This document shows, piece after piece, positions 28,023 through 62,679 of a stretch of DNA of 64,000 nt (its first letter is position 1; every line of letters starts with the position of its first letter). The translations under genes were made by a program, and so were the position numbers. This DNA is from Arenicola marina (taxonomy: Eukaryota > Annelida > Polychaeta > Arenicolidae): assembly GCA_964019135.1 (NCBI GenBank), contig OZ025265.1, positions 27,131,143 through 27,195,142 on the forward strand, written 5' to 3'. The notes beneath the pieces were generated by a model that worked only from the letters and a program-made list of their open reading frames with translations, made no database searches and was not told the origin of the DNA.

Positions 28023-30740
28023 TAGACGCGTGTGCAGACGAGGTAGGTATCTAGACGTCTGTATAGCCATGTGCAGACGAGGTGGACCTTTATTAGACGT
28101 CTCTAGCCATGTGCAGACGAGGTAGGCCTTCAGACGTCTGCATAGCCATGTGCAGACGAGGTAGGCCTCTAGACGTCTGTATAGCCATGTGCAGACCAGG
28201 TAGGCCTCTTGACGTCTGTATAGCCATGTGCAGACGAGGTAGGCCTTCAGACGTCTGTATAGCCATGTGCAGACGAGGTAGGCCTTTAGACGTTTGCATA
28301 GCCATGTGCAGACGAGGTAGGCCTTCAGACGTCTGTATAGCCATGTGCAGACGAGGTAGGCTTTCAGACGTTTGTATAGCCATGTGCAGACGAGGTAGGC
28401 CTCTAGACGTCTGTATAGCCATGTGCAGACGAGGTAGGCCTTCAGACGTCTGTATAGCCATGCGCAGACGAGGTAAGCCTCTAGACGTCTGTATAGCCAT
28501 GTGCAGACGAGGTAGGCCTCTAGACGTCTGTATAGCCATGCGCAGACTAGGTAGGCCTCTAGACGTCTGTATAGCCATGTGCAGACGAGGTAGGCCTCTA
28601 GACGTCTGTATAGCCATGTGCAGACGAGGTAGGCTTTCAGACGTTTGTATAGCCATGTGCAGACGAGGTAGGCTTTCAGACGTTTGTATAGCCATGGGCA
28701 GACGAGGTATGCCTTCAGACGTCTGTATAGCCATGTGCAGACTAGGTAAGCCTCTAGACGTCTGTATAGCCATGTGCAGACTAGGTAAGCCTCTAGACGT
28801 CTGTATAGCCATGTGCAGACGAGGTAGGCCTCTAGACGTCTGTATAGCCATGTGCAGACGAGGTAGGCCTATAGACGTCTGCATAGCCATGTGCAGACTA
28901 GGTAAGCCTCTAGACGTCTGTATAGCCATGTGCAGACTAGGTAAGCCTCTAGACGTCTGTATAGCCATGTGCAGACGAGGTAGGCTTTCAGACGTTTGTA
29001 TAGCCATGTGCAGACGAGGTATGCCTTCAGACGTCTGTATAGCCATGTGCAGACTAGGTAAGCCTCTAGACGTCTGTATAGCCATGTGCAGACTAGGTAA
29101 GCCTCTAGACGTCTGTATAGCCATGTGCAGACCAGGTAGGCCTTCAGACGTCTGTATAGCCATGTGCAGACGAGGTAGGCCTCTAGACGTCTGTATAGCC
29201 ATGTGCAGACGAGGTAGGCCTTCAGACGTCTGTATAGCCATGTGCAGACGAGGTAGGCCTTCAGACGTCTGTATAGCCATGTGCAGACGAGGTAGACGTC
29301 TGTATAGCCATGTGCAGACGAGGTAGGCCTTTAGACGTCTGTATAGCCATGTGCAGACGAGGTAGGCCTCTAGACGTCTGTATAGCCATGTGCAGACGAG
29401 GTAGGCCTTCAGACGTCTGTATAGCCATGTGCAGACGAGGTAGACGTCTGTATAGCCATGTGCAGACGAGGTAGGCCTTTAGACGTCTGTATAGCCATGT
29501 GCAGACGAGGTAGACGTCTGTATAGCCATGTGCAGACGAGGTAGACGTCTGTATAGCCATGTGCAGACGAGGTAGACGTCTGTATAGCCATGTGCAGACG
29601 AGGTAGGCCTTTAGACGTCTGTATAGCCATGTGCAGACGAGGTAGGCCTTCAGACGTCTGTATAGCCATGTGCAGACGAGGTAGACGTCTGTATAGCCAT
29701 GTGCAGACGAGGTAGACGTCTGTATAGCCATGTACAGACGAGGTAGACGTCTGTATAGCCATGTGCAGACGAGGTAGGCCTTTAGACGTCTGTATAGCCA
29801 TGTGCAGACGAGGTAGGCCTTTAGACGTCTGTATAGCCATGTGCAGACGAGGTAGGCCTCTAGACGTCTGTATAGCCATGTGCAGACGAGGTAGGCCTTC
29901 AGACGTCTGTATAGCCATGTGCAGACGAGGTAGACGTCTGTATAGCCATGTGCAGACGAGGTAGACGTCTGTATAGCCATGTGCAGACGAGGTAGACGTC
30001 TGTATAGCCTTGTGCAGACGAGGTAGGCCTTTAGACGTCTGTATAGCCATGTGCAGACGAGGTAGGCCTCTAGACGTCTGTATAGCCATGTGCAGACGAG
30101 GTAGGCCTTCAGACGTCTGTATAGCCATGTGCAGACGAGGTAGGCCTCTTGACGTCTGTATAGCCATGTGCAGACGAGGTAGGCCTCTTGACGTCTGTAT
30201 AGCCATGTGCAGACGAGGTAGGCCTTCAGACGTCTGTATAGCCATGTGCAGACGAGGTAGGCCTCTAGACGTCTGTATAGCCATGTGCAGACGAGGTAGG
30301 CCTTAACACGTCTGTATAGCCATGTGCAGACCAGGTAGGCCTCTAGACGTCTGTATAGCCATGTGCAGACGAGGTAGGCCTTCAGAGGTCTGTATAGCCA
30401 TGTGCAGACGAGGTAGGCCTCTAGACGTCTGTATAGCCATGTGCAGACGAGGTAGGCCTTCAGACGTCTGTATAGCCATGTGCAGACCAGGTAGGCCTCT
30501 AGACGTCTGTATAGCCATGTGCAGACGAGGTAGCCCTTTAGACGTCTGTATAGCCATGTGCAGACGAGGTAGGCCTCTAGACGTCTGTATAGCCATGTGC
30601 AGACGAGGTAGCCCTTTAGACGTCTGTATAGCCATGTGCAGACGAGGTAGGCCTTTAGACGTCTGTATAGCCATGTGCAGACGAGGTAGGCCTTCAGACG
30701 TCTGTATAGCCATGTGCAGACGAGGTAGGCCTCTAGACGT
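28023..30740 (+). repeat. 39/31-bp minisatellite, about 72 copies
   Basis: The 39-bp unit is GCCATGTGCAGACGAGGTAG then GCCTCTAGACGTCTGTATA. A 31-bp form lacks the 8 bases GCCTCTAG, a loss bounded by TAG on both sides. Short units occur singly at about 29290 and 29438 and in threes at about 29508, 29680 and 29927. The unit is stop-free on both strands, so frames of 395-498 codons appear on both. They encode only repeats and have no support as genes. Each unit carries the palindrome AGACGTCT. Confidence 0.95.
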
Positions 30741-32027: not shown

Positions 32028-32075
32028 CCTTCCTTTAGGCGCCGCTGTAGAGTGCTTCACGGTAGCTAGGCAACC

Positions 32076-35700: not shown

Positions 35701-38700
35701 TATGAGTAACCGTAATGCATTGAAAGGCTTTTGTGTGGGAGGGGTTAGTTAGGAGGTGACGCAGCGATCTTAACGCCTTGAAATAAACCTACGTAATACC
35801 CCACCTCGTATAACATGTATACCTACACATAACGTGCCGGTATCTGCACATCGGCATATGCGTCTTGATAAATCTTCCTTTGTGTTTTTTGAAAGATATT
35901 CTAACCTTTGAAACCTTTGAAATATGTTTGTTTTTTTCCCCGTTTGTTTCAGTCAGTGCAGGGACGCTGCTGTTTTCATTATGGGTGTATTGAGTAAGTC
36001 ATTGCTGCTGCTTTCTGATGTGTTGGGTTTTCAGTAAGTGGCGTGGGGGATGGTTGTGGGATGGCAAGGGGGTATGGGGCTGCGGCCTTGACATCCCCAG
36101 CGATTGGGCGATAATAGGTGTTAATTGACTGCCCTTTTTCTTGCAGAACGCCCTTGACTTGACGGCCCCAGCCAGCGACGCTCTGCTGAAAAACCGGAAG
36201 AACGCGTGGGTGCAGCTCGCCGGTCACCCAGGTAACAGTGACGTCACAATGGCTATTATCTTATAGAAGCGTTAGAGGAAACGGCTTGGGTGTCTTGGGG
36301 TCGATGTAATTCTTCATTGTGTTAATGATTGTTCGGCGAAGGAAAAATGTATGGTGGAACCGTGGGAATAGGGTTGAGTTCTCTGCATGGGTGGTTAGGT
36401 GGAGGGGGAGAGGTGGGCGGGAGGGAGGGGCCTTCCGCTGTGGTTACACCTCCACCAGAGCGCTGTGAAATGTACGGCAATTATAGGCAGAAGACTCACT
36501 GCAGGTTTCGTCCTTAGTTATAGTAATTCCTGTGTTAAGCAAATACGGGTACTTGCTTACACCTGTCGTTCTGTTATATGCCTCTTCAGGTTGGTTGGCT
36601 GTATATTCAGAACGCTTTAGCCACTTTTGGTCATATCGCGTCAATGGGGGAAGGAAGGGAGAGTGGAGCCATGTCCCCGGGGGTAACCCCCTACTCTTTG
36701 CGAAGAAGGACATGGGATCTTTATCCTGCGACCACACAGACTTGGCCACAGCGGGGCTCGAACCACCGTGGCCAGAGCACTCAAGGCGAGCGCTCTAACC
36801 CACTGAGCTATCGCGCCGCCCCCTGCCTCAGCGAAGCAGGCCTGCGCAATAAGACGTGGCACTGTGACGTCACAAAATGACGTCCACTTTAACCATTCTA
36901 TTGCATGGACTCCGGGATATATTCTCGTGTCTTCTGTGTTTCAACGAGACTGTTTGGCAAGGCCAGATCTAGTTAGGGTCGCTGACGTCACAAAATGGCG
37001 CGCCTGCATGTGCCCCAAAGTGGCCTAAAACACCAACATTTCAATCTTCATTTGGTGAAATGTTGATGTTTCAGGCCGCTTTGGTGCTCTGGAAGGCCAA
37101 ATAAGGCCGCGAAACCTCCCGGGAGGGACAATGAAGTGGGGTGGGATGAAACTTGCCTAGTTGCGTACCGACTGGGGTGGGGAGGCTCCCATGCGATAGT
37201 GCGTGTGGGTGTGTTCTCTGGGTTGCCGCGTGTGTGTTCTCTAGGTTGCCGCGTGTGTGTTCTCTTGGTTGCCGCGTGTGTGTTCTCTGGGTTGCCACGT
37301 GTGTGTTCTTTTGGTTACCACGTGTGTGTCCTCTGGGTTGCCACGTGTGTGTTCTTTTGGTTACCACGTGTGTGTCCTCTGGGTTGCCACGTGTGTGTTC
37401 TCTGGGTTGCCACGTGTGTGTTCTCTGGGTTGCCACGTGTGTGTTCTTTTGGTTACCACGTGTGTGTCCTCTGGGTTGCAGGTTCCTTCGCCCCTGCCGG
37501 ACCGCACACCATCTGGAAGAAGCGGCTGACGAAAGAGAACAATGAGACGGTTGTGTACCGGGCACTCATGAATGACGTCATCAAAGATGTCATTCCCAAG
37601 TTTTACCGGGAGGTAGAATACAATGGAGACAGTATCCTTATGGCTATTCAGACGTTTTTTTTTTTAAAGTCATGTGAAATATATTTTGGAATTGATGGGA
37701 TTTTAGTAGGTACATTGACGATTGATGTAGATAAATTGATGTGATTTTAGTAGGTAAATTGATGTGATTTTGGCAGGTAAATTGATGTGATTTTAGCAGG
37801 TAAATTGATGTGATATATTTTAAGTTTAAAGGTTTAAGTTTATGTGAATTGTATGACCTGGTTAGTGCGGGAATCATCTATGATTGATGTTTTTCTAAAT
37901 ATCTTGTATTGATTAATAAAAGCATAAAAGACCCATGGAGAATTACATATACAAATTGTAGTATTCTGCTTACATTAATCGACTCCTATAAAAGACGGAA
38001 GTGTTTTTAGGTTATGTTAGTCGTGATCTTTCCCTATCGTGGTGGATACCAAGCAGGATGTATACCCAAAATGACCCAGAGTCGCCAATTTCCGTTACGT
38101 TCGAATTACGTGTCGTTGTGTTTGGCGGAAGTGACCCTTGACCCTAGCGTCCAGTTTTCATTGAAATCGAGGACTTGTTGCAACACTTCACGAATCCCGC
38201 CATAATGGACATCAAGATTGGAACGAGGTCAGTGACAGTGAAGCGGATCCCATGCACCGCCATGACACTCGGTGACTCCAGTGGTGCTTATTCAGTTAGG
38301 GCCCGACCATTGGATGTTGACGGGGCGACCGGCAAATTAATTTTTTGGCAATCTAAAGGGAACAAGAATTTTTCGGACCATCGTGAAAGGAAGAGAATTT
38401 TTTTTTGCTGTTCTTATGGAAGCATTTAATTATTTTTTTAGACATTTATCCAGCTATTTTTTTTTTGGGGGGGGGGGGGGCATGCGCAACACAATTTTTC
38501 AGCGAAAAATGCGCAATATAAAATCCCTTAGACTGTTAATGCCTTCGCACTGCATGTGTAAATTTCGTGTATTACCAATATCTCTTATAGTTAGTACACG
38601 AAGTTGCAAGCTGGGGTTCACTGTTCATGTATATCTTATCGAGATTCCTCTGTGCGGGCAGTTGAAAACTGGCTTTCACTCTACATGAATATAATACAAA

Positions 38701-41700
38701 GGTATGCCTGTACATAAAACTGAGTTTGCTCTGCATATATGTTAATGACGAGTTGGTGTTGATGGACCCAGGACTGATCGACAAAGCATTAATCCATTGA
38801 TCCTTGGTCGTTCCCGGAGGTCCCAATTTAGCCTATGTGAGCACAAAAAGCGGTCTAAAACACTAATTAATTTCCATCGTCGCACTTTTCAGAACGTTCA
38901 TGGAAGCGGAAGTAAAGAACGCGGTCCTCCGCAAGGACCTCTACGAGAAGATGATCAAATTGAGTCCGCACGAGCCCACTCCCGAGGAGCATGCGCAGAA
39001 GGCCATCACCAAGCTTCGCTACATGCAGGTAAGGGGGCGCCGCTCCCTCGTCTGTTGTGGAGAGTCTTCTTTCAAGCGCAGACGCAGGAACTTGACTCAT
39101 TGCTATATCTCATTTCTCGCAAGAGTTTTTTTTTTGATGCCAGATGTTACCTGCTATCCTCATCTACCGTTTGCGGGAATTCTTGTTTGTTGATGAAATG
39201 TTTTTTATTTGCAATGATGAGAAACTGTAGTTATGAATGCATGTGATTTTTGTTGTTGTTCAAATAAGCCGTGAGCAAACGGGAAGAATGATATATGTAT
39301 GCGTCATCATATCATAGACGTGATAACGCCACTGTCAGTAAACATCACTGCAATATTATTAATATGTACTTGTTTGTTGTAAACTTCATTTATTTACCGA
39401 CGTTATCAACAGCGCATACACATCTTAATGACTACCTGTACATTTTTTTTTGTAAACTTCATATATTTAACGACGTTATCAACAGCGCATACACATCTTA
39501 ATGACTACCTCGAACATATAAACAATGACGTCCATATATACTTGTATATCAGAACTAATGTTATGTTGTTTGTTCCAGTTCCGAGAAAACGAGACGACCA
39601 CGCTGTCCTTGGGTTTCAGGGTGGAAGCCGTTCGGGTAAGAACCATGCGCAACGTCCGCCATTTGCATCTGAAGGTCACTTTTATCTATGAAGTTCGTAT
39701 CGTAAAAATCCAGGATAGAGCGGAGCCGTGTCCCCGTGGGCAAGCCCCCACCTACTCTTTTGCGGCATGGGATCTTTATCATGCACACCTTCCCCGACAT
39801 CGGGCACGATGGCTGGCCTGGCAGAGCTCACAAGGCCCGCACAGCCGAGCGCCAGACCCATCGAGTGGCTAATGCGAATAACTTGACCGTAAGAAGTCGC
39901 CCGTTTCCTTATCAGTGCAGCTTTGCTGTAACTCTGTTATCAGTGGAGAAATCCTAAACGAACGTTATGATGAAAGCCCTAACATTTTTTGTTTTTTGTT
40001 TTTTGTAAAATCGTTTATTTCGAATCCAAACAGTTGTCGGTACATAGCAGCCATACATCTGACATATAAAACATTAGTTCACAGCAGGTATATAGTTAGG
40101 TATAATCTGAAAATGTTGTCCAATATACTAATTTACTGAAAGCACTAAAATGACAATGTCTATAGTGTCAGTTCTGCCTAACCAGCGCGTACTGAACGAC
40201 GTAGACATCCTTCCTGTATACATCTTGAAGGGGAATACCTATGCAAATCCCGAAATTACCGATTGTGAACGAATTGAGAGTTCTTTCTACGTTTTCAGCT
40301 GTTTCTCTTCAGTATGACAATGCTCTGTAGTCCTCAGTTCTATCTCGCTAGCACTTTATGACATACATCTTAAAGGGCAATGTCACCAATATGGCCGATT
40401 GCGTACGAATTGAGAGGGTTTTTTCACGTGTTTCGCTGTTTCTCCTAAGAGAAACCTTTGTTCGCACACTGCTCAATACTGAGATCAGCTGAGTTGCTCA
40501 AAGTTGTATTTGATAGAATCCAGTGTCTGTCCGCTTCCTATTCTCATCAAGATATAAAAGTGATGCCCTATATCTGTCATTGTATATAAGTTACTACTTA
40601 TAACTTCACTGTTAAAAAAGAATGACTCAAGAAATAGAAATGTTTTCGGTCGGCCTGCTTTATAGGCATTCTCTGATGTACATATAGCATGTTTCATTCA
40701 TTTATCCTTCATCGTCCCAGGAGCGTCCTTGGCACAGTCTAGCCCTAGTGTTCAGAACAGCGACATTAAACACCAAGTTATTTCATCTCTGTTTTGTACT
40801 GACGAAAGTTCATTCGTTCACAGATGCCTGGTGACCACGTGAATGATAATCTGAAGAAGATCAACACCCGTGAGGGGGTAAGTCTGGTTTGTGGAGACCC
40901 CGAAACGTCGAGGGGGGGTGGGTGCTGTGCCAAGGTGTCGAGACTTCTCCGGTGGGAGAGTAGACTGATCCAGGCTGTCAATCATTCACTGACGTCACTA
41001 TTGCTTTTATCCAATCAGGTGGGCAAAAACGCGTGCGTTATGTCGGACAAACAAAGCAGCATGTCACTGTCTTGTCAGTTTCAGACATGAATGCTTTTCA
41101 TTTGTACATACCATCAGCTATGATTGTCAATGTCACGCTCACGATTAACGAAAAAGGACGTGGGTGGGGCTTAGTGTCGGAGATTGTATCCGTCCATCAT
41201 CGGTTGGGTGGAGCTAGGGGAAGTGAGGGTGATAGCGGTGATAACGGGTGAGGTGATGGAGCGGGGTTAATTCAAGGAGACGTCCAGTGTGGTGGAACCT
41301 TCGCACAAGTCAGTGATTCAGTGATTTTGACCCTTAATATATATACTCCGAAGTGCCAAGGCTGAGACTTGGTAATGGATCACTGACACTTTATCCTGGG
41401 TTTGTTTCATTATAAAAACACTTTATACAAAATTATTTCAATAATTTAATTTTTTCATTTAATTTTTTCATTTGAATTCATCATTTGTAAAGAAGTTTTA
41501 TTTAAATTTGTCATTTGAATTTATAATTTGTAAAGAAGTTTTATTTAAATTTGTCATTTGAATTTATAATTTTTAAAGACGTTTTATTTAAATTTTACAT
41601 TTGAATATATAATTTTTAGAGAATTGATCTTGGTTTATGTTGATGTTGGTGTCAGGTTGAGAAGGTGATGGCTCGGTTCCTGGAGTACAACCCGGAGGTG

Positions 41701-44122
41701 CTGAAGAAGCTGACAAAGCGGTTGAGAGACATACGGCGGAGGTTTTCATCCTCACAGTTCTTCAAAGACCACGAGGTGAGCAAAGGCTTCTCCTGTACAT
41801 GGGGTTCATACGGTCGGTATTACTGTACGCCAGGTGGTAGTGTACGCCCGGTAACACTGTACGCCCGGTAACACTGTACGCCCGGTATCACTGTTCGCCT
41901 GGTGACATTGTACGCCCGGTAATACTGTACGCCCGGTAACAATGTTCGCCCGGTGACATTGTACGCCCGGTAACACTGTTCGCCCGGTGACATTGTACGC
42001 CCGGTAACACTGTACGCCCGGTAACACTGTACGCCCGGTGAGACTACGCCCGGTAGCAATGTACGCCCGGTGACACTGTACTTCCGGTAACACTGTACGT
42101 CTGGTAACACTGTACTCCCGGTAACACTGTACTCCCGGTAACACTGTACTCCCGGTAACACTGTACGCCCGGTAACAATGCACGCCGGGTGACAATGTAC
42201 TTCCGGTAACACTGTACGTCGGGTAACACTGTACTCTCGGTAACACTGTACTCCCGGTAACACTGTACGCCCGGTAGCAATGTACGCCCGGTGACACTGT
42301 GCTTCCGGTAACACTGTACGCCCGGTAACACTGTACGCCCGGTAACAATGTACGCCCGGTAACACTGTACGCCCGGTAACACTGTACGCCCGGTAACAAT
42401 GTACTCCCGGTAACAATGTACGCCGGGTGACAATGTACTCCGGTTTACTGCACAGTTAAAGTGTAATGAAAAAATGAAATAAAATGTAATGAAAAAATAA
42501 AATACAAGGTAATAAAAAAAATACAATGTAATAAACAAATAAAATTTAATGTAATTAAGAAATAAAAAAGAATGTGAGGAAAAAATTACATAAATAGTAA
42601 TGTAAAAAAAATATATAAAGACAAATCTGATGATAACGATAAAATAAAATGTAATTAAAACGTATAATAAAATGTAATGAAAACGTATAATAAAATGTAA
42701 TGAAAACGTATAATAAAATGTAATTAAAAAATAAGTGTAATGAAAAAACAGAAGAATTAATTAAATTAGTAAGAACAGGAAATTGTTTTTAGAATCATTT
42801 GACACTGTGTGTTGCTGCAGATCGTGGGTAGCTCCATCCTGGTGCTGTACGACCACCAGCGGCATGCCGGCGCCTGGATGATCGACTTCGCCAAGACTTC
42901 CTCTGTAGAGGACTCTACTCTCAACCATCGGACTCCTTGGACTGTGGGTAACCACGAGGACGGGTACCTGCTGGGACTGGACAACCTCATTAAGGTAAAG
43001 GTAGAGGCTGGGACTGGACAACCTCATTAATGTAAAGGTAGAGGCTGGGACTGGACAGCCTCATTAAGGTAAAGGTAGAGGCTGGGACTGGACAGCCTCA
43101 TTAAGGTAAAGGTAGAGGCTGGGACTGGACAACCTATTTAAGGTAAAGGTAGAGGTTGGGACTGGACAGCCTCATTAAGGTAAAGGTAGGGGCTGGGACT
43201 GGACAGCCTCATTAAGGTAAAGGTAGAGGCTGGGACTGGACAACCTCTTTAAGGTAAAGGTAGAGGCTGGGACTGGACAACCTCGTTAAGGTAAAGGTAG
43301 AGGCTGGGACTGGACAACCTCGTTAAGGTAAAGGTAGAGGCTGGGACTGGACAACCTCTTTAAGGTAAAGGTAGAGGCTGGGACTGGACAGCCTCATTAA
43401 GGTAAAGGTAGAGGCTGGGACTGGACAGCCTCATTAAGGTAAAGGTTGGGACTGGACAGCCTCATTAAGGTAAAGGTAGCGGCTGGGACTGGACAGCCTC
43501 ATTAAGGTAAAGGTAGAGGCTGGGACTAGACAACCTCATAAAGGTAGAGGCTGGGACTGGACAACCTCTTGAAGGTAAAGGTAGAGGCTGGGACTGGACA
43601 ACCTCGTTAAGGTAGAGGCTGGGACGGGACAGCCTCATTAAGGTAAAGGTAGAGGCTGGGCATGGACAACCTCGTTACGGTAATGGTAGAGGCTGGGACT
43701 GGACAACCTCGTTAAGGTAAAGGTAGAGGCTGGGCATGGACAACCTCGTTTCGGTAATGGTAGAGGCTGGGACTGGACAACCTCATTAAGATAAGGTTAC
43801 CGATGGTGGAGATAAAGAAATTCGTGTTGTATCGCCACCGTCTGTCCGGTGAAAATGTAATTTTTGAGTTTAAAAATAGTTTTAACATTGTTTAAATCGT
43901 TTAAAATTGTTCTTTTTTCAGGTGTGCGATGAGATGGATCTAAGCAAGCGCCAAGCGGAGGCGGCAGCCCGCATGCCAACCCTAGGGACATCCGGTTCGG
44001 ACACTGGTCGGGTGCCGGACAAATGCCCAGTCATAGACTTAATAGACCCCAAGAACCCTAGTCAGAACCTGAACCAGAACCAAAGCCAGAACCACGTGCA
44101 GCTCCAGTGTGAAACCACATGA
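32076..44122 (+). CDS. ITPKA: Inositol-1,4,5-trisphosphate 3-kinase, ten coding exons, 579 aa
   Basis: Phosphorylates Ins(1,4,5)P3 to Ins(1,3,4,5)P4 with ATP, ending the IP3 calcium signal and making a second messenger. Coding exons: 32076-32765, 36147-36231, 37482-37631, 38155-38227, 38893-39028, 39579-39635, 40824-40877, 41656-41775, 42821-42994, 43922-44122. All introns are GT-AG, phases agree throughout, and the sum is 1740 nt. The kinase domain starts near residue 250 ([13 protein letters not shown]). It holds the family motif PAIMDIKIG (323-331), [24 protein letters not shown], the SSIL motif (459-462), IDFAK (476-480; IDFGK in mammals) and [15 protein letters not shown]. The N-terminal 230 residues are low-complexity apart from MGCVHSDE and CTLC (159-162). 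The C-terminus carries about 60 extra residues ending in an N/Q-rich tail. The symbol marks the family: an invertebrate gene is probably co-orthologous to ITPKA/B/C. Start: CAACCATGG context, and MGC gives a classic acylation signal. Family assignment is firm; the exact start and any 5' UTR exon are inferred. Confidence 0.93.
32798..33110 (+). repeat. Degenerate ~24-bp minisatellite, intron 1 of IP3 3-kinase
   Basis: About a dozen imperfect copies of a pyrimidine-rich unit (TTGTCTGTCTCCCTGGATC type) begin about 30 bases after the exon 1 donor. Copies differ at several positions, so the array is old or fast-evolving. No coding content is credible here. Confidence 0.75.
33590..33735 (+). mobile_element. 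tRNA-derived SINE, second family, intron 1
   Basis: A box B-like GGGGTTCGAATCCCGG is followed by the family body (CACCTAATCTGAGGCATGG, CGTCCCGGGAGGTTCC, CTGCGAAAGCGAA). The tRNA-like 5' part is degraded. Same family as at 19233 and 22185. Confidence 0.65.
34004..34225 (-). mobile_element. tRNA-derived SINE copy, intron 1
   Basis: Shares the body of the 36591-36822 copy on the - strand: AAGCGTCCTGAACATAC end, GGGGGTTACCCCCGGGGACA, and CGCGAGATAAAGATCCC. Its tRNA-like head is more diverged, and the bases near 34190-34215 (GCACGTGGATCGGTGG) match the copy at 20583. Confidence 0.75.
34408..34785 (+). repeat. 55-bp minisatellite, intron 1 of IP3 3-kinase
   Basis: About seven near-identical 55-bp units containing AAAGGTGGCCTAAAGCACC. 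That core matches the 3' end of a tRNA-derived SINE family present elsewhere in the window (AAAGTGGCCTAAAACACC at about 19380 and 37020). The array therefore probably grew from a SINE tail. Confidence 0.85.
36147..36231 (+). CDS. ITPKA: IP3 3-kinase coding exon 2
   Basis: Acceptor TTCTTGCAG, donor CCAG|GTAACA, phase 0 in and phase 1 out. Encodes the linker and the first strand of the kinase fold, WVQLAGHP, which is nearly identical to the vertebrate WVQLAGH(A/T)GSF. Confidence 0.9.
36591..36822 (-). mobile_element. tRNA-derived SINE, nearly full length, intron 2
   Basis: Read on the - strand it begins with a tRNA-like head (GATAGCTCAGTGGGTTAGAGC box A, GGTTCGAGCC box B). A body with GTCGCAGGATAAAGATCCC and GGGGGTTACCCCC follows, and it ends near AAGCGTTCTGAATATAC. 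Related copies lie at 22534-22743, 34004-34225, 39715-39872 and 57060-57110. It is a Pol III-type retroposon, not a tRNA gene. Confidence 0.85.
37010..37130. repeat. Inverted pair of SINE tails, intron 2
   Basis: A SINE tail (CCCCAAAGTGGCCTAAAACA at 37014) is followed by its reverse complement, making a hairpin around TTTCAATCTTCATTTGGTGAAA. It continues into the reverse-strand SINE body with CCTCCCGGGAGGGACAATGAA. It could fold in the pre-mRNA just before the array at the exon 3 acceptor. Confidence 0.6.
37197..37481 (+). repeat. 24-bp minisatellite ending at exon 3 acceptor
   Basis: About twelve units of GTTGCCACGTGTGTGTTCTC plus TGGG. The last unit stops after GGGTTGC and continues as AG, so the exon 3 acceptor and its upstream pyrimidine/T stretch are made of repeat DNA. 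Most units contain a CACGTG E-box. Reading frames through it are artefacts of a unit length divisible by three. Confidence 0.9.
37482..37631 (+). CDS. ITPKA: IP3 3-kinase coding exon 3
   Basis: Encodes [16 protein letters not shown] to [10 protein letters not shown], the nucleotide-binding N-lobe (Lys-rich KKRL after the Gly-Ser-Phe turn). Phase 1 in, phase 1 out. Its acceptor TTGCAG is the truncated last unit of a 24-bp minisatellite. Confidence 0.9.
37692..37815 (+). repeat. ~23-bp repeat, intron 3
   Basis: About five copies of GTAGGTAAATTGATGTGATT with TTA/GCA ends, beginning shortly after the exon 3 donor (37632). AT-rich and non-coding. Confidence 0.7.
38155..38227 (+). CDS. ITPKA: IP3 3-kinase coding exon 4
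   Basis: Encodes [19 protein letters not shown] and KIGT. It holds the inositol phosphate kinase signature PxxxDxKxG as PAIMDIKIG, the catalytic and substrate-contact loop. Acceptor GTCCAG, donor GAG|GTCAGT, phase 1 in and 2 out. Confidence 0.9.
38785..38870 (+). mobile_element. SINE 3' fragment, intron 4
   Basis: Contains CGTTCCCGGAGGTCCCAATT and ending AAAAAGCGGTCTAAAACACT, the 3' half of the SINE family seen at 19233, 22185 and 33590. It ends just before the exon 5 acceptor. Confidence 0.6.
38893..39028 (+). CDS. ITPKA: IP3 3-kinase coding exon 5
   Basis: Encodes [20 protein letters not shown] and [21 protein letters not shown]. This matches the helical IP3-binding insertion typical of IP3 3-kinases and absent from the smaller IPMK/IP6K relatives, so it decides the subfamily. 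Acceptor TTTTCAG, donor CAG|GTAAGG. Confidence 0.92.
39401..39512 (+). repeat. 72-bp tandem duplication, intron 5
   Basis: CGACGTTATCAACAGCGCAT and the following CACATCTTAATGACTACCT occur twice, 72 bp apart, inside intron 5. The spacer (a CATTTTTTTTTG stretch) occurs once. Confidence 0.75.
39579..39635 (+). CDS. ITPKA: IP3 3-kinase coding exon 6
   Basis: A 57-nt exon encoding [19 protein letters not shown], equal to vertebrate WRE..SS..TLGFRIEGI. The usual Trp is Phe. Acceptor TTCCAG, donor CGG|GTAAGA, both phase 0. Confidence 0.88.
39715..39872 (-). mobile_element. tRNA-derived SINE fragment, intron 6
   Basis: Diverged - strand copy of the same SINE family. GGCTTGCCCACGGGGACACGG and the ATAAAGATCCCATGCCGC block are recognisable. 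The tRNA-like end is degraded. Confidence 0.6.
40690..40780 (+). mobile_element. SINE 3' fragment, intron 6
   Basis: TTCATTTATCCTTCATCGTC and CCAGGAGCGTCC match the body of the second SINE family, ending near TTAAACACCAA. Short and diverged. Confidence 0.5.
40824..40877 (+). CDS. ITPKA: IP3 3-kinase coding exon 7
   Basis: A 54-nt exon encoding [18 protein letters not shown]. It aligns with the vertebrate stretch DG..N.DFK.T(K/R)(T/S)RE. Acceptor TTCACAG, donor GGG|GTAAGT, both phase 0. Confidence 0.85.
41030..41200 (+). repeat. Dispersed ~170-bp repeat R1, intron 7
   Basis: Shares long stretches with copies at 20713-20905, 22030-22190 and 23365-23560: TATGTCGGACAAACAA, TGTCAGTTTC, ACCATCAGCTATGATTGTCA, AACGAAAAAGGAC and GGGGCTTAG. 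Its class is unknown; no terminal inverted repeats or coding content were seen. Confidence 0.75.
41455..41630 (+). repeat. AT-rich ~50-bp tandem repeat, intron 7
   Basis: Three imperfect units of TTTGTAAAGAAGTTTTATTT with AAATTTGTCATTTGAATTTA, in the last part of intron 7, about 30 bases before the exon 8 acceptor. Non-coding. Confidence 0.7.
41656..41775 (+). CDS. ITPKA: IP3 3-kinase coding exon 8
   Basis: Encodes [19 protein letters not shown] to [10 protein letters not shown], the helix pair before the second catalytic motif (vertebrate ..RL..IR.TLE.S.FF..HE). Acceptor GTGTCAG, donor GAG|GTGAGC, both phase 0. Confidence 0.9.
41822..42440 (+). repeat. 17-bp minisatellite, intron 8
   Basis: About 36 copies of CGGTAACACTGTACGCC with recurrent variants (GTGACATTG, TACTTCC, TACTCCC). 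It starts about 45 bases after the exon 8 donor. Long overlapping reading frames on the - strand are a by-product of a stop-free unit. Confidence 0.92.
42445..42770 (+). repeat. A-rich AAAATGTAATGAAA-type simple repeat, intron 8
   Basis: Imperfect TAATGAAAA / ATAAAATGTAAT repeats, following the 17-bp array directly and preceding exon 9. No other signal was seen. Confidence 0.7.
42821..42994 (+). CDS. ITPKA: IP3 3-kinase coding exon 9
   Basis: Encodes [27 protein letters not shown] and [16 protein letters not shown]. Asp477 of IDFAK is the metal/ATP-binding aspartate. The mammalian Gly after Phe is Ala here, as in IPMK/IP6K (IDFAH). The last 24 nt and the donor AAG|GTAAAG form the first unit of a 37-bp intronic minisatellite. 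Confidence 0.92.
42971..43790 (+). repeat. 37-bp splice-donor-spanning minisatellite, exon 9/intron 9
   Basis: The unit is CTGGGACTGGACAACCTCAT followed by TAAGGTAAAGGTAGAGG. The first unit includes the last 24 coding bases of exon 9 (LGLDNLIK) and the real donor AAG|GTAAAG. About 22 further units fill the intron, most keeping the AAG|GTAAAG sequence. Use of a later donor would add [11 protein letters not shown] and then a stop, losing exon 10 but keeping the kinase domain. Unit boundaries and counts are by eye. Confidence 0.93.
43922..44122 (+). CDS. ITPKA: IP3 3-kinase coding exon 10 and stop
   Basis: Acceptor TTTTTTCAG. Encodes [19 protein letters not shown], then a polar tail with an N/Q-rich run ([14 protein letters not shown]), ending CETT and TGA. 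Vertebrate paralogues end some 10-20 residues after the LDNLI motif, so about 50 residues are extra. No AATAAA was seen in the next kilobase. Confidence 0.85.
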   Translation: MCDEMDLSKRQAEAAARMPTLGTSGSDTGRVPDKCPVIDLIDPKNPSQNLNQNQSQNHVQLQCETT

Positions 44123-44340
44123 TAGCCACCTGGCGGCGAGTGTGTGTGTGTGTGTGCGCGCGTCTGTCATGAAAATGCGACTTTGTTATATAACTGTGAG
44201 TGCGTGTCATAAAAGGGAGTGTGAATGATGCATGATGGGTACCTGATAATTGGAGCCTGACGGACGTCGTGAACAGGAGTTTATTATGCTTCAAATATGT
44301 CGTTCAAACTATATCAAATGGAACCGGAATTGCCGCTCAG

Positions 44341-52814: not shown

Positions 52815-55800
52815 GAAGAGCGCCATCTCGCGAGGCACGCACCACCATACGTATGTGGCTGTGAATAGCGCCATCTGACGACCACAGTCTATGACCAGCG
52901 CAGATGTCATGGCACGGGCCTCCATACGTATATGGCTGTGAACAGCGCCATCTGACGAACACAGTCCATGACCAGCGCAGATATCATGGCACGGGCCTCC
53001 ATACGTATGTGGCTGTGAATAGCGCCATCTGACGACCACAGTCTATGACCAGCGCAGATATCATGGCACGGGCCTCCATATGTATGTGGCTGTGAATAGC
53101 GCCATCTGACGACCACAGTCTATGACCAGCGCAGATATCATGGCACGGGCCTCCATATGTATGTGGGTGTGAATGGCCCCATCAGACGACCCCATACTAT
53201 GACCAGCGCAGATATCATGGCAGGGGCCTCCATACGTATGTGGGTGTGACTGGCCCCATCAGACGACCCCATACTATGACCAGCGCAGATATCATGGCAC
53301 GGGCCTCCATGCGTATGTGGGTGTGAATGGCCCCATCAGACGACCCCATACTATGACCAGCGCAGATGTCATGGCACGGGCCTCCATACGTATGTGGCCG
53401 TGAATAGCGCCATCTGACGACCATAGTCTATGACCAGCGCAGATATCATGGCACGGGCCTCCATACGTATGTGGGTGTGAATGGCCCCATCAGACGACCC
53501 CATACTATGACCAGCGCAGATATCATGGCACGGGCCTCCATACGTATGTGGGTGTGAATGGCCCCATCTGACGACCCCATACTATGACCAGCGCAGATAT
53601 CATGGCACGGGCCTTCATATGTATGTGGGTGTGAATGGCCCCATCAGACGACCCCATACTATGACCAGCGCAGATATCATGGCACGGGTTCCATACGTAT
53701 GTGGGTGTGACTGGCCCCATCAGACGACCCCATACTATGACCAGCGCAGATATCATGGCACGGGCCTCCATACGTATGTGGGTGTGAATGGCCCCATCAG
53801 ACGACCCCATACTATGACCAGCGCAGATATCATGGCACGGGCCTCCATACGTATGTGGGTGTGACTGGCCCCATCAGACGACCCCATACTATGACCAGCG
53901 CAGATATCATGGCACGGGCCTCCATACGTATGTGGGTGTGACTGGCCCCATCTGACGACCCCATACCATGACCAGCGCAGATATCATGGCACGGGCCTCC
54001 ATACGTATGTGGGTGTGACTGGCCCCATCAGACGACCCCATACTATGACCAGCGCAGATATCATGGCACGGGCCTTCATATGTATGTGGGTGTGAATGGC
54101 CCCATCTGACGACCCCATACTATGACCAGCGCAGATATCATGGCACGGCCCTCCATACGTATGTGGGAGTGAATGGCCCCACCAGACGACCCCATACTAT
54201 GACCTGCGCAGATATCATGGCACGGGCCTCCATACGTATGTGGGTGTGACTGGCCCCATCAAACGACCCTATACTATGACCAGTGCAGATATCATGGCAC
54301 GGCCCTCCATACGTATGTGGGAGTGAATGGCCCCATCAGACGACCCCATACTATGACCAGCGCAGATATCATGGCACGGGCCTCCATACGTATGTGGGTG
54401 TGACTGGCCCCATCAAACGACCCTATACTATGACCAGTGCAGATATCATGGCACGGCCCTCCATACGTATGTGGGAGTGAATGGCCCCACCAGACGACCC
54501 CATACTATGACCAGCGCAGATATCATGGCACGGGCCTCCATACGTATGTGGGTGTGACTGGCCCCATCAAACGACCCTATACTATGACCAGTGCAGATAT
54601 CATGGCACGGCCCTCCATACGTATGTGGGAGTGAATGGCCCCATCAGACGACCCCATACTATGACCAGCGCAGATATCATGGCACGGGCCTCCATACGTA
54701 TGTGGGTGTGACTGGCCCCATCAAACGACCCTATACTATGACCAGTGCAGATATCATGGCACGGCCCTCCATACGTATGTGGGAGTGAATGGCCCCACCA
54801 GACGACCCCATACTATGACCAGCGCAGATATCATGGCACGGGCCTCCATACGTATGTGGGTGTGACTGGCCCCATCAAACGACCCTATACTATGACCAGT
54901 GCAGATATCATGGCACGGCCCTCCATACGTATGTGGGAGTGAATGGCCCCATCAGACGACCCCATACTATGACCAGCGCAGATATCATGGCACGGCCCTC
55001 CATACGTATGTGGGTGTGAGTGGCCCCATCAGACGACCCCATACTATGACCAGCGCAGATATCATGGCACGGGCCTCCATACGTATGTGGGAGTGAATGG
55101 CCCCATCAGACGACCCCATACTATGACCAGCGCAGATATCATGGCACGGCCCTCCATACGTATGTGGCTGTGAATAGCGCCATCTGACGACCACAGTCTA
55201 TGACCAGCGCAGATATCATGGCACGGGCCTTCATATGTATGTGGCTGTGAATAGCGCCATCTGACGACCACAGTCTATGACCAGCGCAGATATCATGGCA
55301 CGGCCCTCCATACGTATGTGGGTGTGAATGGCCCCATCAGACGACCCCATACTATGACCAGCGCAGATATCATGGCACGGGCCTCCATACGTATGTGGGT
55401 GTGAATGGCCCCATCAGACGACCCCATACTATGACCAGCGCAGATATCATGGCACGGGCCTCCATACGTATGTGGGTGTGAATGGCCCCATCAGAGGACC
55501 CCATACTATGACCAGCGCAGATATCATGGCACGGGCCTCCATACGTATGTGGGTGTGAATGGCCCCATCAGACGACCCTATACTATGACCAGCGCAGATA
55601 TCATGGCACGGGCCTTCATATGTATGTGGGTGTGACTGGCCCCATCAGACGACACCATACTATGACCAGCGCAGATGTCATGGCACGGGCCTCCATACGT
55701 ATGTGGCCGTGAATAGCGCCATCTGACGACCACAGTCTATGACCAGCGCAGATGTCATGGCACGGGCCTCCATACGTATGTGGCCGTGAATAGCGCCATC

Positions 55801-56441
55801 TGACGACCACAGTCTATGACCAGCGCAGATGTCATGGCACGGGCCTCCATACGTATGTGGCCGTGAATAGCGCCATCTGATGACCACAGTCTATGACCAG
55901 CGCAGATGTCATGGCACGGGCCTCCATACGTATGTGGCCGTGAATAGCGCCATCTGACGACCACAGTCTATGACCAGCGCAGATGTCATGGCACGGGCCT
56001 CCATACGTATGTGGCCGTGAATAGCGCCATCTGACGACCACAGTCTATGACCAGCGCAGATGTCATGGCACGGGCCTCCATACGTATGTGGCCGTGAATA
56101 GCGCCATCTGACGACCACAGTCTATGACCAGCGCAGATGTCATGGCACGGGCCTCCATACGTATGTGGCCGTGAATAGCGCCATCTGACGACCACAGTCT
56201 ATGACCAGCGCAGATGTCATGGCACGGGCCTCCATACGTATGTGGCCGTGAATAGCGCCATCTGACGACCACAGTCTATGACCAGCGCAGATGCCATGGC
56301 ACGGGCCTCCATACGTATGTGGCCGTGAATAGCGCCATCTGACGACCACAGTCTATGACCAGCGCAGATATCATGGCACGGGCCTCCATATGTATGTGGG
56401 TGTGAATGGCCCCATCAGACGACCCCATACTATGACCAGCG
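52815..56441 (+). repeat. 77-bp minisatellite downstream of the lectin gene
   Basis: About 47 units of 77 bp, each with GACCAGCGCAGATATCATGG, CACGGGCCTCCATACGTATG and a variable half. Type A has GTGAATAGCGCCATCTGACG; type B has GTGAATGGCCCCATCAGACG. Type A lies at both ends, type B in the middle. From about 54170 to 54960 units pair as 154-bp dimers, alternating further as 308 bp. Many short reading frames repeat at 77 or 154-bp offsets and are artefacts. Confidence 0.95.
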
Positions 56442-56484
56442 CCGCCTGACGACACTGATCGTGACTGGGAGATCATCAAGCCTC

Positions 56485-56762: not shown

Positions 56763-59700
56763 CTGAAATGAAAAAAAAGTGGCTGGATAATAAATAAAAC
56801 TTGCGATGAACATGATGAGATGTCATGGAAAGCCGACGCATGTTCCTGACTGGGTCCCATGTTGAACAGCATGAACGGTGAATGGGGGATGATCAGCCTA
56901 TCATCTTATCAGCTTATCAGTTCCGTTGCCGAATGCCGCAAAATTAAATAGAGCGGTGGGTTTATATAAACTCCTGACAATTATGACAATTATGAGTCTT
57001 ACAAGGCTGTAAGAATCCAGAGTGAAACCTTAACATTTGAGCATTATTTATATGACACAGGTTGATTGGTTGTATATTCAGAACGCTTTAACCACTTTTG
57101 GTCACGTGGTCATTTGGACACCCAGGTAATGAGTAATAAGGGTGCGACATCTTGCTGAGTTAACCAGTCCAGATAATACAATGATATGTTAAGTATTGAC
57201 TTTGCGATTTCCTTCGATGGTATGAATATGAACGCTCATACAATTCATGGGTTGCTTGGTATGATTTGCATATAAGGCATGCCATTTGAACACAACTTAC
57301 GATGAAAAGACCGTGACATAACGGTGACTCACCCAGAGTGACAAAGCCGCGGAGATCAGCGAGGTTGGTGAGTTCCAGAAGGACTCCACCTACGCCCCGA
57401 CAGTGATCCCGCGCCTCCTCCCACTGCAGCGGAATCAGCACGAAGCGGTAGCACTTGGACACCAGGGGCGACTGGGTGAATCCTGGCGGACACGACATCT
57501 CCGGACCACTTGTTGGAAATGGGATGTCCGGACCACATGTCGGACATGAGATGTCCGGACCACATGTCGGACATGGAGAGCCTGGACCACATGTCGGGCA
57601 TGATATTTCCGGTCCACATGTCGGACATGCGATATCCGGACCACATGTCGGGCTTGGGGAGTCCGGGCCACCTGTCGGGTTAAAAGAAAGGTAATTTGTT
57701 GAAGCTAGGGTGTTGCAAGAAGTGTCGTTAAAAGAAAATACCAGGGGGCTGCAATGTGATATAAAACTAAAAGTCCATTGGTATAAAATCTATTTACATT
57801 ATCGAGAAAATCGCACATCAACAGTATAAAATACAGATTTTCGCCCATCAGGCGGGTGTCGACATGTTCTGAACACGTGACCAGAGTTAGCCAATCACAC
57901 GCAAGGCGTTGACGTCAGTGACGACTACCTTCTGCTGAACCCAAACTATGTTTACATGCGAGCGGGGCGTCATTGGAACAAGATGTCGGCCTAAAACCTC
58001 TCATAAACAGTGACAAGCAAATTTGACTCATAAAGTTGAAACATCAATGCCTTTAGAACAAAACTTAACTTTGTATGATCAAACAATATAGTTAAGTAAA
58101 TTCCCTATCGTTTAACTGGAAATGTAAATGATATGGGCCCGGCATGTCCCTTTAAAGTGTTCGTGCCATGATTTAGTTTTGCTCAAAATTAACTTGGTTT
58201 AGGAAAGATAAACAAATAACAATTTGTTTTAATGAGAGTTTAAATTTTTTTATTCCACGGCATCACTATAAACGCGTGCGTCAAAGTAGCAAAAGTGAGA
58301 TCCGGCGTGTTTATTTCTGGGAGCATTGCATCTCAGCGTTATTTGAAAATTCCCCAATGAAGTCACAAGATTGACAGGTGAGCTTTGATGCAGTGCGTAG
58401 ACATCTGTGGTCGAGGGCGTGTATTGTTTTATGGTTGAGTGCGGTTTCGTTGAGTTCAAGCCAATGAGCAGAGAGAATCTGAGACTCAATAAAAAAGCAC
58501 ATGCGTTTGTATTCCCCTTGTGTTGGCAATGTTTGTATGGAAGAAATCATTATTGAACATTCACCTTATTGTGATGTGGATGCGTCTATTGATGTCATTG
58601 AACGTAACCGACATCAGTTCTCTATATTCAGCTTAAATATTGCCTCAATTCGTTCGAAGATCGACCAACGGAAAGTGTTTTTTGATGTCTTACATGCTGG
58701 TCATGTGGTGTTAAGTGCAATATGTTTACACCTGAAACCTGGTTATCCGATGATGATGATACTGGCCTGTATGAACTCGAAGACTATGTATTAATATCAC
58801 AGGGTAAATACTGTAGTGCGCGTGGAGGCCTGTTGATATATCTCCACAAATCAAAAGTTTACCTGCATAGAAAACCCTGTAAAATCGGAAAATGTTGATA
58901 GGTAACATATATCGACCTCCATGTGACACAAATGAAAATTATGCGACGTTTTCTCAAGAATTAACTGAGGTTATACTTTCATTTGAGAGAAGTAAACCAC
59001 ATAGAGAATGCATTCTAGCAGGTGATTTTAACATAGATCTTTAAAGGATTTGTGAAAAATCAGCAATTAGCGATTACTTTGATACCATTGTAGCTTGTAG
59101 TTTTCTTCCAAAAATCACCTTGCCGACTAGACTGTCGCGTAATAGGGGTACGTTATTGATAATTTTCTATGTAAGTTAACATCTAGCTCGTTAAATACAA
59201 CAGCTGGCATTATATTGAAGGCTGTCTCAGACCATCTGCCGTATTACTTATCTTTAGACATCGATGTGCGACGCTCAAACAAAACGCCCACATATATTAA
59301 TATAAAAACCAATGATGCACAATCAGTAGAGAAATTCAAAACACAAATTGCCAACGCAGACGCATTAGGTAAACTAGACAGAGACCTATGTGCCGATCCT
59401 AACAGTAACTATGAGTTCCTTGAGGATATATTTACGCATGCCAGGGATATATGTTTACCAAGCAAGACAGTAAATTTAATAAGAGAAAACACAAAAAGGC
59501 AAACTGGATCACCACTGGTATTATTAAGTCCATAACATTTAAGGACAAACTTTATATAAACCTTAAAATGACAGCTCCAACCTCCTGTCAATACGATGCT
59601 CTCAAAACCAATTTTAAGACGTATGAAACCCTACTAAAAAATCGTATTCGGTTGGCCAAAAGATCGTATTATCATCATGCTTTCGAAAAATGTAAAGGGG

Positions 59701-62679
59701 ATATCAAGGCAACTTGGAAAGCAATAAGATCCGTTATTAATAGGTCAAACCGAAAGGACAAATTCTCTGAGCTCTTTAATATTAATGGGAAGCCAACATC
59801 TGACCGTTCGGCTATAGCAAATGGCTTTAATGATTTTTTTAGCACCATTGGTACTAAACTTGCCAGTGAAATCAATCAGGACCCAAACCAAAGTTATACT
59901 GGCTATTTAGGCGATCCCTGTAAAAACAAACTGGTGTTTACGTTAATTGACCCTAATGTCACTAATAAAATAATTGATGAGCTGAAACCTAAGGCTACTT
60001 CTGGGCATGATGACATGAAATGAAAATGAAAATGATGGAACTATTAAAAGTAGATTTAAGCAAGGAAATTACCCACATCATTAACCAATCAATTTCTACT
60101 GGTATATTTCCGGATAAATTAAAACTTGCAAAAGTAGTGCCGGTTTTTAAAAAGGGGGAAATATCTAATATGGATAACTATAGGCCAATTCCAATTTTGC
60201 CAGCCATATCTAAGCTTTTTGAAAAAGTAATCTATAATCAGATATATGGACACTTTGATCACGAAACCCTGTTTAATAGTGGTTAGTATGGTTTCCGAAA
60301 AAAACATTCAACCCAATTAGCTACACTGGAATTAATTGATAGAACCATACATAAACTAGATAACGGGGAGATTCCGATAAACATCTATCTTGATTTATCA
60401 AAAGTCTTTGACACCATTAATCACGACATACTATTAACTAAACTAAAGCACTCTGGGGTTTTTGGGCTGGCGCTCAAGCTGCTACAAAATTATCTTCACA
60501 ATCGCAAACAGTACGTAAGCATAGACAATGTTCAATTCCAAGAAGTTCTGATCTCCCGAGGAATACCGCAGGGGTCAATACTTGGCCCTCTTCTATTTAT
60601 AATATATATAAACGACATATCAAGAGCGAGTTCAATATTTAGTGCAATTATTTACGCTGACGATACAACCTTTTCTAGCACACTAAGTACATTAGCGCCA
60701 AAAAGTAATGTACGCCGAAGTAGTGAAGTGTTAAACCACGAACTGTCTCTAGTAAGCAATTGGCCTAAACTTAACCAACTATCTCTAAACATTAAAAAGA
60801 CCAAATTTATGTTATTTTATATGCCACAAAAGCGGGTAACGATACCGGAACTTTATATTGAAAATACCAAGCTGGAATGCGTTGACGACTTTGATTTTCT
60901 CCGATTGACCCTACATAAACATCTGAAATGGTCCAGTCACGGTGATAAAATTGCTTTTAAAATATCTAAGATAGTTGGAGTCATGCAGCATCTAAAATAT
61001 ACCCTTCCTCAACATATTCTGCTAACCATTTATCCAGAAAAAAACTATTCGCATTCATGAGTTACAGGCATTGAAGTTTTATTATAGGCTGCTGAATGAT
61101 GATCTTCCTGCATATTTTATTACCTTTTTCCATTTTCCCCGTATATTAGACCAACATGAGTATAACACCAGATGCAAGCACAATATAATCATACCCAGAA
61201 CCAGGTAAACATTTGCCGAACATTGCATCCGCTATTACTTGACTCATTTAATAAACCGAACTTCAAAAAACATTTTAACGAAGATATTTACCCATTCAAT
61301 AGCGGGCTACCCTACATATATAAAAAATATACTTATTGAGGTACTGTGTTGACTGTTTTAAAGTTAATTGTTATGTCTGCCACAAATAACTATAGAGATA
61401 TTTATATCATATGTTCTATTGAATTCTAATGGTGTCTATCGATAATTTCTTACCCAATTTGTCCTTATTAAAGTATTGTTCTCCGCATTTTTTTTTTTTT
61501 TTTTTTTCTTTGCTTTCTTTTGAGGTGGCCACCATGCCAGCGACTATGTCATAATGGTGGTCTCCTCGGCCAGGCATTATATTTTGTTCGTTTTTGCTGT
61601 ATGATGTATTGTATTGTTGTTGTTTTCCTGGTAGAAATAAATGATGATTCTCTCTTTGACGTCACTGTCCTCGCTCACAGACGTTAAATTGGTAGATGCG
61701 AAAACAAGCGGAAAAAGTATGCTCTTCTACTATTTGGGGCGTCACAGCTGGATAATATAAGCGTGGAAACGCAGAAGATTAATAAGAGCTAAAGTCGCTT
61801 TGGCGTGGCACGAACACTTTAAATAATACTGTACTCATCTCCCTGATCATCAAAATTTAGGTCTGTCGCCTAAATGTCGGCGTCGCATTTTTGAAAAACA
61901 ACTGTAAAACTGTGCCGGTGTCGAATTTGGAAATGTTCGGTGTCGGATTTTGGATGCCAATGTCGGCTGGGGGCCCCGCCATGGCCCCGCCCCCTTCTAG
62001 GGCCGAGATTTATACCATGTAGCATATGAAAACCGAAACCGCCCCCCCCCCCCCACCTATCCAGCATATCTAGACCCGACCCTGAAACCGGCCCCCATAT
62101 CTAGATTTTCTGAATCCGCCCCTGGAATGAGTTTACTTTCTGCTATCACTTTTTCCAAATGGTACGCTGAATATTTTAAATACATAAAGGTCGCAATCTA
62201 TATAACCTCACCTGATGCAAATACGAAATACGTCGGCAGGAAACCCAGGAGAAATCCTAAGACGAGGGCTGACATGGCTATCCCGACCACAAGCCGCCTC
62301 TCTCTAGAACACTGGAACATGCATGTCGATACTGAATCCCGCACCCGACTAACAGGTGCAATCGTTAGCGACTCATAAACGGGAGGATTTTGGCTGTCCA
62401 GATTGCTCTTGGGGGATTTATCTGGAGTGCTTAGAGGTACGGCAGGATTCTTTGTGTCGTCGTCTTGGCTGGCGTTGGCGAAAGTCCGATTTGATGGGCT
62501 AGCCGGACTTGTCATGGGGTTAGCCGTATTGCCTGCTGTATCCTGTTGGATGTTGATGTAAATGGGGAGAGAATGTCCTTCGTCAGATAAATGCTCGGGT
62601 GAGGGCACTGTCTTCAACTTGCGTGAGGTCATCGTGCTGTCGATGATGGGAATGACGGCAAGGATGACGTTACTTAGAT
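56485..62679 (-). CDS. Type II membrane C-type lectin, three exons seen, 345 aa from first Met
   Basis: Exons on the - strand: 62679-62212, 57671-57333, 56762-56485, joined by two phase-1 GT-AG introns. From the first Met of the first exon (62632) the sum is 1038 nt. Order of parts: cytoplasmic tail (1-112) rich in Ser/Pro with NPPVYESL at 82-89; CMFQC and basic RERR before a membrane helix (about 114-138); a stalk of six 9-residue repeats of CPTCGPDIS type; then a C-type lectin domain from CPPGFTQSPLVSKCYRF to SFSICESPLLV. The EPN motif (GEPNNNGG) and LND predict Ca2+-dependent binding of mannose-type sugars. The usual second cysteine pair is missing. This is a likely cell-surface immune or adhesion receptor. 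The first exon has a strong acceptor and an open frame upstream of the Met, so at least one more exon probably lies upstream. Confidence 0.85.
57060..57110 (-). mobile_element. SINE 3' fragment in lectin intron
   Basis: GTTGTATATTCAGAACGCTT and TAACCACTTTTGGTC match the 3' end of the SINE at 36591-36822. Only about 50 bases remain. Confidence 0.6.
57333..57671 (-). CDS. Lectin exon: Cys-Pro repeat stalk and first half of C-type lectin domain
   Basis: A 339-nt exon, phase 1 in and out, donor CTGG|GTGAGT. Encodes GGPDSPSPTCGPDIACPTCG-type repeats, then CPPGFTQSPLVSKCYRFVL and PLQWEEARDHCRGVGGVLLE. These are the N-terminal hairpin cysteines, the WxxA...C helix and the GG.L strand of the lectin fold. 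The acceptor lies inside the first repeat unit. Confidence 0.85.
57495..57671 (-). repeat. Coding 27-bp minisatellite in lectin stalk
   Basis: Six to seven units (TGTCCGACATGTGGTCCGGA plus CATCTCA) encode CPTCGPDIS. Third-position and neutral changes keep Cys, Pro and Gly in most units, which suggests selection on the stalk. The most 5' unit carries the splice acceptor (CCGACAG instead of CCGACAT). Confidence 0.85.
58540..61655 (+). mobile_element. Dead LINE (CR1/Jockey-type non-LTR retrotransposon), antisense in lectin intron
   Basis: An endonuclease part (SLNIASIRSKIDQ, ETWLSDDDDTGLYEL out of frame, IYRPP, ILAGDFNIDL, VSDHLPYYLSL) precedes the reverse transcriptase. RT motifs are NYRPIPILPAISKLFEKVIY, YGFRKKHSTQLATLELI, IYLDLSKVFDTINHDILL, GIPQGSILGPLLF and IYADDTTF. 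The tail has ALKFYYRLLNDDLPAYF and LDQHEYNTRCK. It is broken: frameshifts near 58725, 59475 and 60020, an in-frame TAG before YGFRKK (60284), and a deletion joining TIY to the tail near 61035. The 3' end has AATAAATGATGATT near 61637. The 5' end is uncertain. Confidence 0.88.
62035..62126 (-). mobile_element. GGGGCGGATC-family MITE end, lectin 3' of tail exon
   Basis: A C-homopolymer, then TCTGAATCCGCCCCTGGAA, the family's right end. It lies about 85 bases from the lectin exon donor at 62212. Confidence 0.45.
62212..62679 (-). CDS. Lectin exon: cytoplasmic tail and transmembrane helix
   Basis: Acceptor TTTTTTTTTCATCTTCAG, donor TCAG|GTGAGG. Encodes (X)LSNVILAVIPIIDST, then MTSRKLKTVPS through RRLVVGIAMSALVLGF and LLGFLPTYFVFAS. 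It enters and leaves in phase 1. Basic residues lie before the helix and the lectin follows it, which gives type II topology. Confidence 0.8.

Follow-up and report, generated by a model that had tools for sequence, protein, structure and literature searches.

A 37-bp minisatellite repeats a splice donor in a predicted inositol-trisphosphate 3-kinase gene of Arenicola marina

Minisatellites whose units cross an exon-intron boundary are known from amphioxus, where they have been termed "mirage" minisatellites and were found in Adh3, troponin C (TnC), the globins BflGb6 and BflGb9, and PGBD5; they are described as unstable in length and as carrying the splice signal in many copies, with regular splicing reportedly undisturbed (PMC3087553, PMC3902484). 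A comparable case in the human CBS gene is a polymorphic 31-bp variable number tandem repeat (VNTR), c.1444_1467+7(16_21), made of 24 coding and 7 intron bases in 16 to 21 copies (PMC2630376) and located at exon 13-intron 13 (PMC1395315). Here, we analyzed 64,000 nucleotides of the annelid Arenicola marina (contig OZ025265.1, positions 27,131,143 to 27,195,142; the window), in which a 37-bp minisatellite repeats the exon 9 splice donor of a predicted inositol-trisphosphate 3-kinase (ITPK) gene. A preliminary description of this DNA had rightly named the amphioxus precedent but overlooked the CBS repeat, which is closer still. Like the amphioxus mirages, the ITPK array spans the boundary and keeps the splice signal in many copies, but it occurs in another phylum and is a long donor-side array of 23 units. 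It shares with the CBS VNTR a unit formed by the exon's last 24 coding bases and the first intron bases, as well as a close copy number; however, it includes 13 rather than 7 intron bases and lies in a different gene, with no common origin. In view of the amphioxus mirages and the CBS VNTR, this kind of array is already known, and what would be new is its apparent frequency and donor bias in one genome, together with a copy-number series among ITPK paralogs on C5. In the literature searched on annelids, minisatellites, and introns, arrays crossing such boundaries were not reported from any annelid; an earthworm study describes minisatellites in intron 1 and mentions tandem exon duplications for one clone (PMC12783039).

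Tandem Repeats Finder (TRF) called the array at 42970-43794 with a period of 37, 22.8 copies, 89% matches, and a score of 1265, which excludes a chance origin; the start of exon 10 was corrected to 43922 (Table 1). Nineteen of the 23 units are 37 bp long; units 13, 16, and 18 measure 31 bp, having lost 6 bp within the AAGGTAAAGGTAGAGG part, and the last unit is partial. Unit 1 consists of CTGGGACTGGACAACCTCATTAAG followed across the boundary by GTAAAGGTAGAGG, that is, 24 coding bases (LGLDNLIK) and 13 intron bases (GTAAAG and 7 more), and this composition agrees with the preliminary description. Most copies do keep an intact donor, as had been stated: an exact AAG/GTAAAG is retained in 16 of the 22 extra units and is altered in units 2, 16, 18, 20, 22, and 23. 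The number of extra copies also agrees with the roughly 22 decoy donors counted earlier, but that count missed a further donor-like GT lying 6 nt downstream in each 37-bp unit, mostly as AAG/GTAGAG, with which the array holds about 40 donor-like sites. Similarly, the array reaches nearly to the end of intron 9, covering 800 of its 927 nt, although 127 nt of unique sequence are left. Because its unit crosses the exon-intron boundary (24 + 13 bases, 23 units) and its copies keep the AG/GT signals, the array is a mirage minisatellite. A DNA search of the genome (867 Mb, 762 contigs), whose counts are lower bounds, located it at one place. Of the mitochondrial contig, the first 10,000 of 15,942 bases were read, under genetic code 5; its long frames appear to be nad4L-nad4-nad1-nad3-nad2-cox1-cox2, all on one strand and with trnV between nad4 and nad1, an order resembling the annelid ground pattern. 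A search for GFP-family genes, run with no positive control, gave no match and is weak evidence against an amphioxus (Branchiostoma) origin, which was thought unlikely. An artifact, either a unit number inflated by assembly or a wrong gene model, is highly improbable, given that substitutions distinguish the units from one another and the 6-bp deletions set three of them apart, that the frame is open through nine predicted exons, and that comparable arrays are present at other loci.

When predicted exons 2 to 10 of the host gene are spliced together, the frame stays open for 349 residues; a candidate exon 1, seen as an open reading frame near 32075, lies outside this join. The product matches the Pfam IPK family (4e-38, 131.6 bits) and ITPKA/B/C in the PDB (4e-72, for ITPKA, to 3e-63), the next best match being an IP6K-type enzyme at 3e-5. 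On this homology, the gene is an inositol-trisphosphate 3-kinase, as previously named, and among the solved IPK-family enzymes it is nearest to ITPK. The predicted kinase (translation of 42821-42994) has DFAKT at the position where the C5 paralogs and the ITPKAs aligned from the PDB have DFGKT. Exon 10 is probably genuine, because the ITPK alignments run into it, by 2 residues (ITPKA) to 6 residues (ITPKB), and because the C5 paralogs read on, continuing LIDIFEELE within a single exon, which was matched by eye to LIK-VCDEMD. Exon 9 as a terminal exon with an intron-encoded tail was thought unlikely as the main form since exon 10 extends the homology, although by these few residues and the by-eye C5 match. 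With exon 10 carrying on homologous sequence, it is splicing from the first donor that appears to restore the conserved sequence.

Among 14 donors tested by translation, only those at 42994 and 43000 were productive, while all 12 beyond unit 1, as well as intron retention, led to one identical truncated C terminus. The earlier view that any slip truncates the kinase holds for the 12 later donors tested but not for the second donor of unit 1, at 43001, which stays in frame and adds Val-Lys. The TAA at 43028-43030 lies 1 nt from the unit-2 donor downstream of it and 38 nt from that of unit 3. By the general 50-55-nt rule for nonsense-mediated decay (NMD), decay would be expected only for donors from unit 4 onward. 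The possibility that donor 1 is favored as stronger or more accessible was rejected: its predicted U1 duplex energy, -6.8, is identical to that of its 16 intact copies, and its accessibility as predicted from local folding is 0.08, compared with 0.06 to 0.59 for the intact copies, and is below that of 15 of the 16. Nothing in the donor sequence favors donor 1; if this donor is indeed used, the choice must be made by context.

We consider it probable that the array arose in the ITPK gene as a mirage minisatellite that expanded over the junction of exon 9 with intron 9 through slippage or unequal exchange, and that it is near-neutral because the splicing machinery selects the first donor by context. 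This context would most likely be recognition of the 174-nt exon as a unit or earliest transcription of the first donor, and it may include upstream exonic enhancers. Extra donors downstream of the real one would then be approximately neutral, leaving the minisatellite free to grow; misfires would yield a kinase shortened at its C terminus, with transcripts from donors of unit 4 or later becoming NMD targets, and the same process would act on several genes of the genome with fast turnover. Several points weigh against this explanation. The near-neutrality of the array is something we infer, and use of donor 1 is argued from homology over few residues; in addition, donor 1 has the low predicted accessibility given above, and the second donor of unit 6, AAG/GTAGGG, pairs better with U1 in prediction (-9.7).

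A search of the genome for IPK domains found ITPK paralogs on C2 and C4 and three near-identical tandem copies on C5 (G000:C5:30286001-30359000), the latter lacking the intron that is the last one in the window gene. A C5 exon with the terminal residues YPWVQLAGHQ bears a 52-bp donor-spanning array with 25 coding bases per unit, at a different donor from that of the window gene; arrays of this kind, in the ITPK paralog and also in myosin genes, had been overlooked in the preliminary description. Units of the C5 arrays were scored as exon matching when no more than 3 of the 25 exon bases were mismatched. The last exons of the three copies differ at 0 to 1 of 285 positions, and unit number is unequal even between the two copies that agree throughout this exon. 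Following the arrays of 3 and 2 units are more degenerate repeats without exon bases, so that degeneration as well as loss may explain the difference in unit number.

The C5 copies, which lack the last intron, bear on the idea that the last intron is itself new, having been made or enlarged by tandem duplication (the Rogers model), which we regard as unlikely. This model has been published, with potato RdRp, fission yeast, and ATP2A1 as cases of intron gain (PMC4974935), and the window array resembles such introns in its tandem copies holding AG/GT. All three C5 copies read through LIDIFEEL (the third as a translation only), and exon 10 starts with GT after AG (CAG/GTGTG), both of which would suit a new intron. 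However, the intron may just as well have been lost in the C5 line, and the 127 nt before exon 10 are, by eye, not repeat units. Moreover, the unit continues after AAG with GTAAAGG, unlike the GTGTGCG at the start of exon 10, indicating that the boundary from which the array was copied possessed its intron start beforehand. Origin of the intron from the array is hence unsupported: the two splice sites do not both derive from copies, as the array does not extend into the acceptor region (43795-43921), which by eye is no repeat unit. Here, in contrast to introns gained by tandem duplication, the acceptor is no repeat copy.

The unit-number differences among the C5 copies would also fit a regulatory device, in which decoy donors would capture U1 or send a fraction of splicing toward a truncated or NMD isoform, with unit number setting the kinase level. 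The letter-perfect donors in 16 of 22 extra copies and the single truncated protein obtained from all 12 later donors are consistent with such a role, and the human CBS VNTR is said, from the title of a cited paper, to be associated with reduced enzyme activity. Nevertheless, similar arrays occur at unrelated donors of several genes, as a mutational process predicts, and the amphioxus cases are reported to splice normally (PMC3087553, PMC3902484), making a regulatory device improbable. The tuning of isoform ratio by repeat number, suggested in the preliminary description, is speculative.

The frequency of such arrays was assessed at 30 myosin-head exon loci, the best 30 of 77 matches. Donor-spanning arrays are present at 4 of them (13%; 95% interval, 4 to 31%), whereas acceptor-spanning arrays are absent from all 30 at the main TRF threshold. 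At a lower threshold, a weak 15-bp repeat of 2.7 copies shows up at L058, starting a little upstream of an acceptor and being largely exonic; it disappears at the main threshold and was not counted. Arrays at L031, L032, L034, L042, L050, L053, and, by TRF coordinates, L055 are near a boundary but non-spanning and were likewise uncounted, and 14 AMP-binding loci were scanned yet excluded from the boundary count because each match is one large exon. The units of L043 also contain an acceptor-like CACAG, and tiny extra exons are conceivable there. Fisher's test of donors versus acceptors (4/30 versus 0/30) gave a p value of 0.11 for myosin alone, 0.054 with 6 C5 boundaries added, and 0.026 with the 8 window boundaries, a selected case, added as well, where the 30 loci include several that overlap and belong to a single gene, and where boundaries on C5 and in the window were assessed visually. 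Random placement predicts 1.2 arrays per side and at least 4 at donors with a probability of 0.03, given a 60-nt span picked after seeing the data and with arrays in overlapping flanks counted more than once; against a donor bias, it also yields 0 at acceptors with a probability of 0.31. The excess of donors over acceptors is suggestive only.

On this basis, we propose only tentatively, as a possibility less likely than not, that boundary-spanning minisatellites are pervasive in this genome and lie mostly at donors because spliceosomes tolerate extra downstream donors but not extra upstream acceptors, and that the arrays thus provide a natural series of introns with between 2 and 25 or more donors of nearly equal strength. 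Tandem arrays are common, making up 27% of the window and, under a slightly different filter, 21% of the 44 loci scanned, so that raw material is plentiful. Equal competing donors within one intron constitute a clean natural test of 5' splice site choice at equal sequence strength. A genome with arrays at 4 of 30 sampled donors and with gene copies differing mainly in unit number would permit this test without mutagenesis, and, if the proposal is true, the donor-array series would read out how position decides donor choice. Errors can also arise in the annotation and PCR of genes with such arrays.

Table 1. Locations of the donor-spanning arrays and of the associated gene features. Positions without a locus prefix refer to the window.
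Feature	Location	Strand	Description and basis
37-bp donor-spanning minisatellite	42971-43794	+	Unit 1, real exon end and donor; units 2-23, intronic copies
Predicted exons 2-8	36147-36231, 37482-37631, 38155-38227, 38893-39028, 39579-39635, 40824-40877, 41656-41775	+	Splice signals and homology
Predicted exon 9	42821-42994	+	174 nt, phase 0 at its end; spliced frame open from predicted exon 2 to exon 10; PDB ITPK alignment
Presumed genuine donor, AAG/GTAAAG	42995-43000	+	Intron start 42995; only one of 14 tested donors giving an insertion-free in-frame 9-10 join; homology across the join
Second donor of unit 1, AAG/GTAGAG	43001-43006	+	Use would insert Val-Lys in frame
In-frame TAA	43028-43030	+	Reached by transcripts with a later donor or retained intron; 12 later donors and retention translated
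Non-repeat intron end, pyrimidine tract and acceptor TTTTTTCAG	43795-43921	+	Sequence; TRF array end
Probable exon 10, last coding exon	43922-44123	+	VCDEMDLSK...CETT, then stop; spliced frame; VCDEM matched by eye to IFEEL of C5 paralogs
C5 ITPK array, copy 1	L022:678-1266		11 exon-matching units
C5 ITPK array, copy 2	L024:659-787		3 exon-matching units
C5 ITPK array, copy 3	L026:737-813		2 exon-matching units
Myosin-head array	L036:1623-3174		Donor spanning, 62-bp unit, ~25 copies, extends to locus end
Myosin-head array	L056	reverse	Donor spanning, 100-bp unit, 15 copies
Myosin-head array	L043	reverse	Donor spanning, 37-bp unit, 6.6 copies
Myosin-head array	L057:1560-1913		Donor spanning, 126-bp unit, 2.9 copies

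Other tandem arrays were noted in the window and at the scanned loci. A 23-bp array at 37209-37479 stops 2 bp before exon 3 (37482) of the ITPK gene; the final unit is similar to the acceptor region TGGGTTGCAG, but the repeats include no coding bases. Long minisatellites of the window are found at 6822-9792 (45 bp x 66), 28031-30740 (39 bp x 72), and 52834-56442 (77 bp x 47), and the AMP-binding gene copies L061-L065, L067-L069, and L071 have an adjoining 17-bp array of ~16 to 50 units. Open frames at 59424-61060 of the window resemble, by eye, pieces of a retroelement reverse transcriptase.

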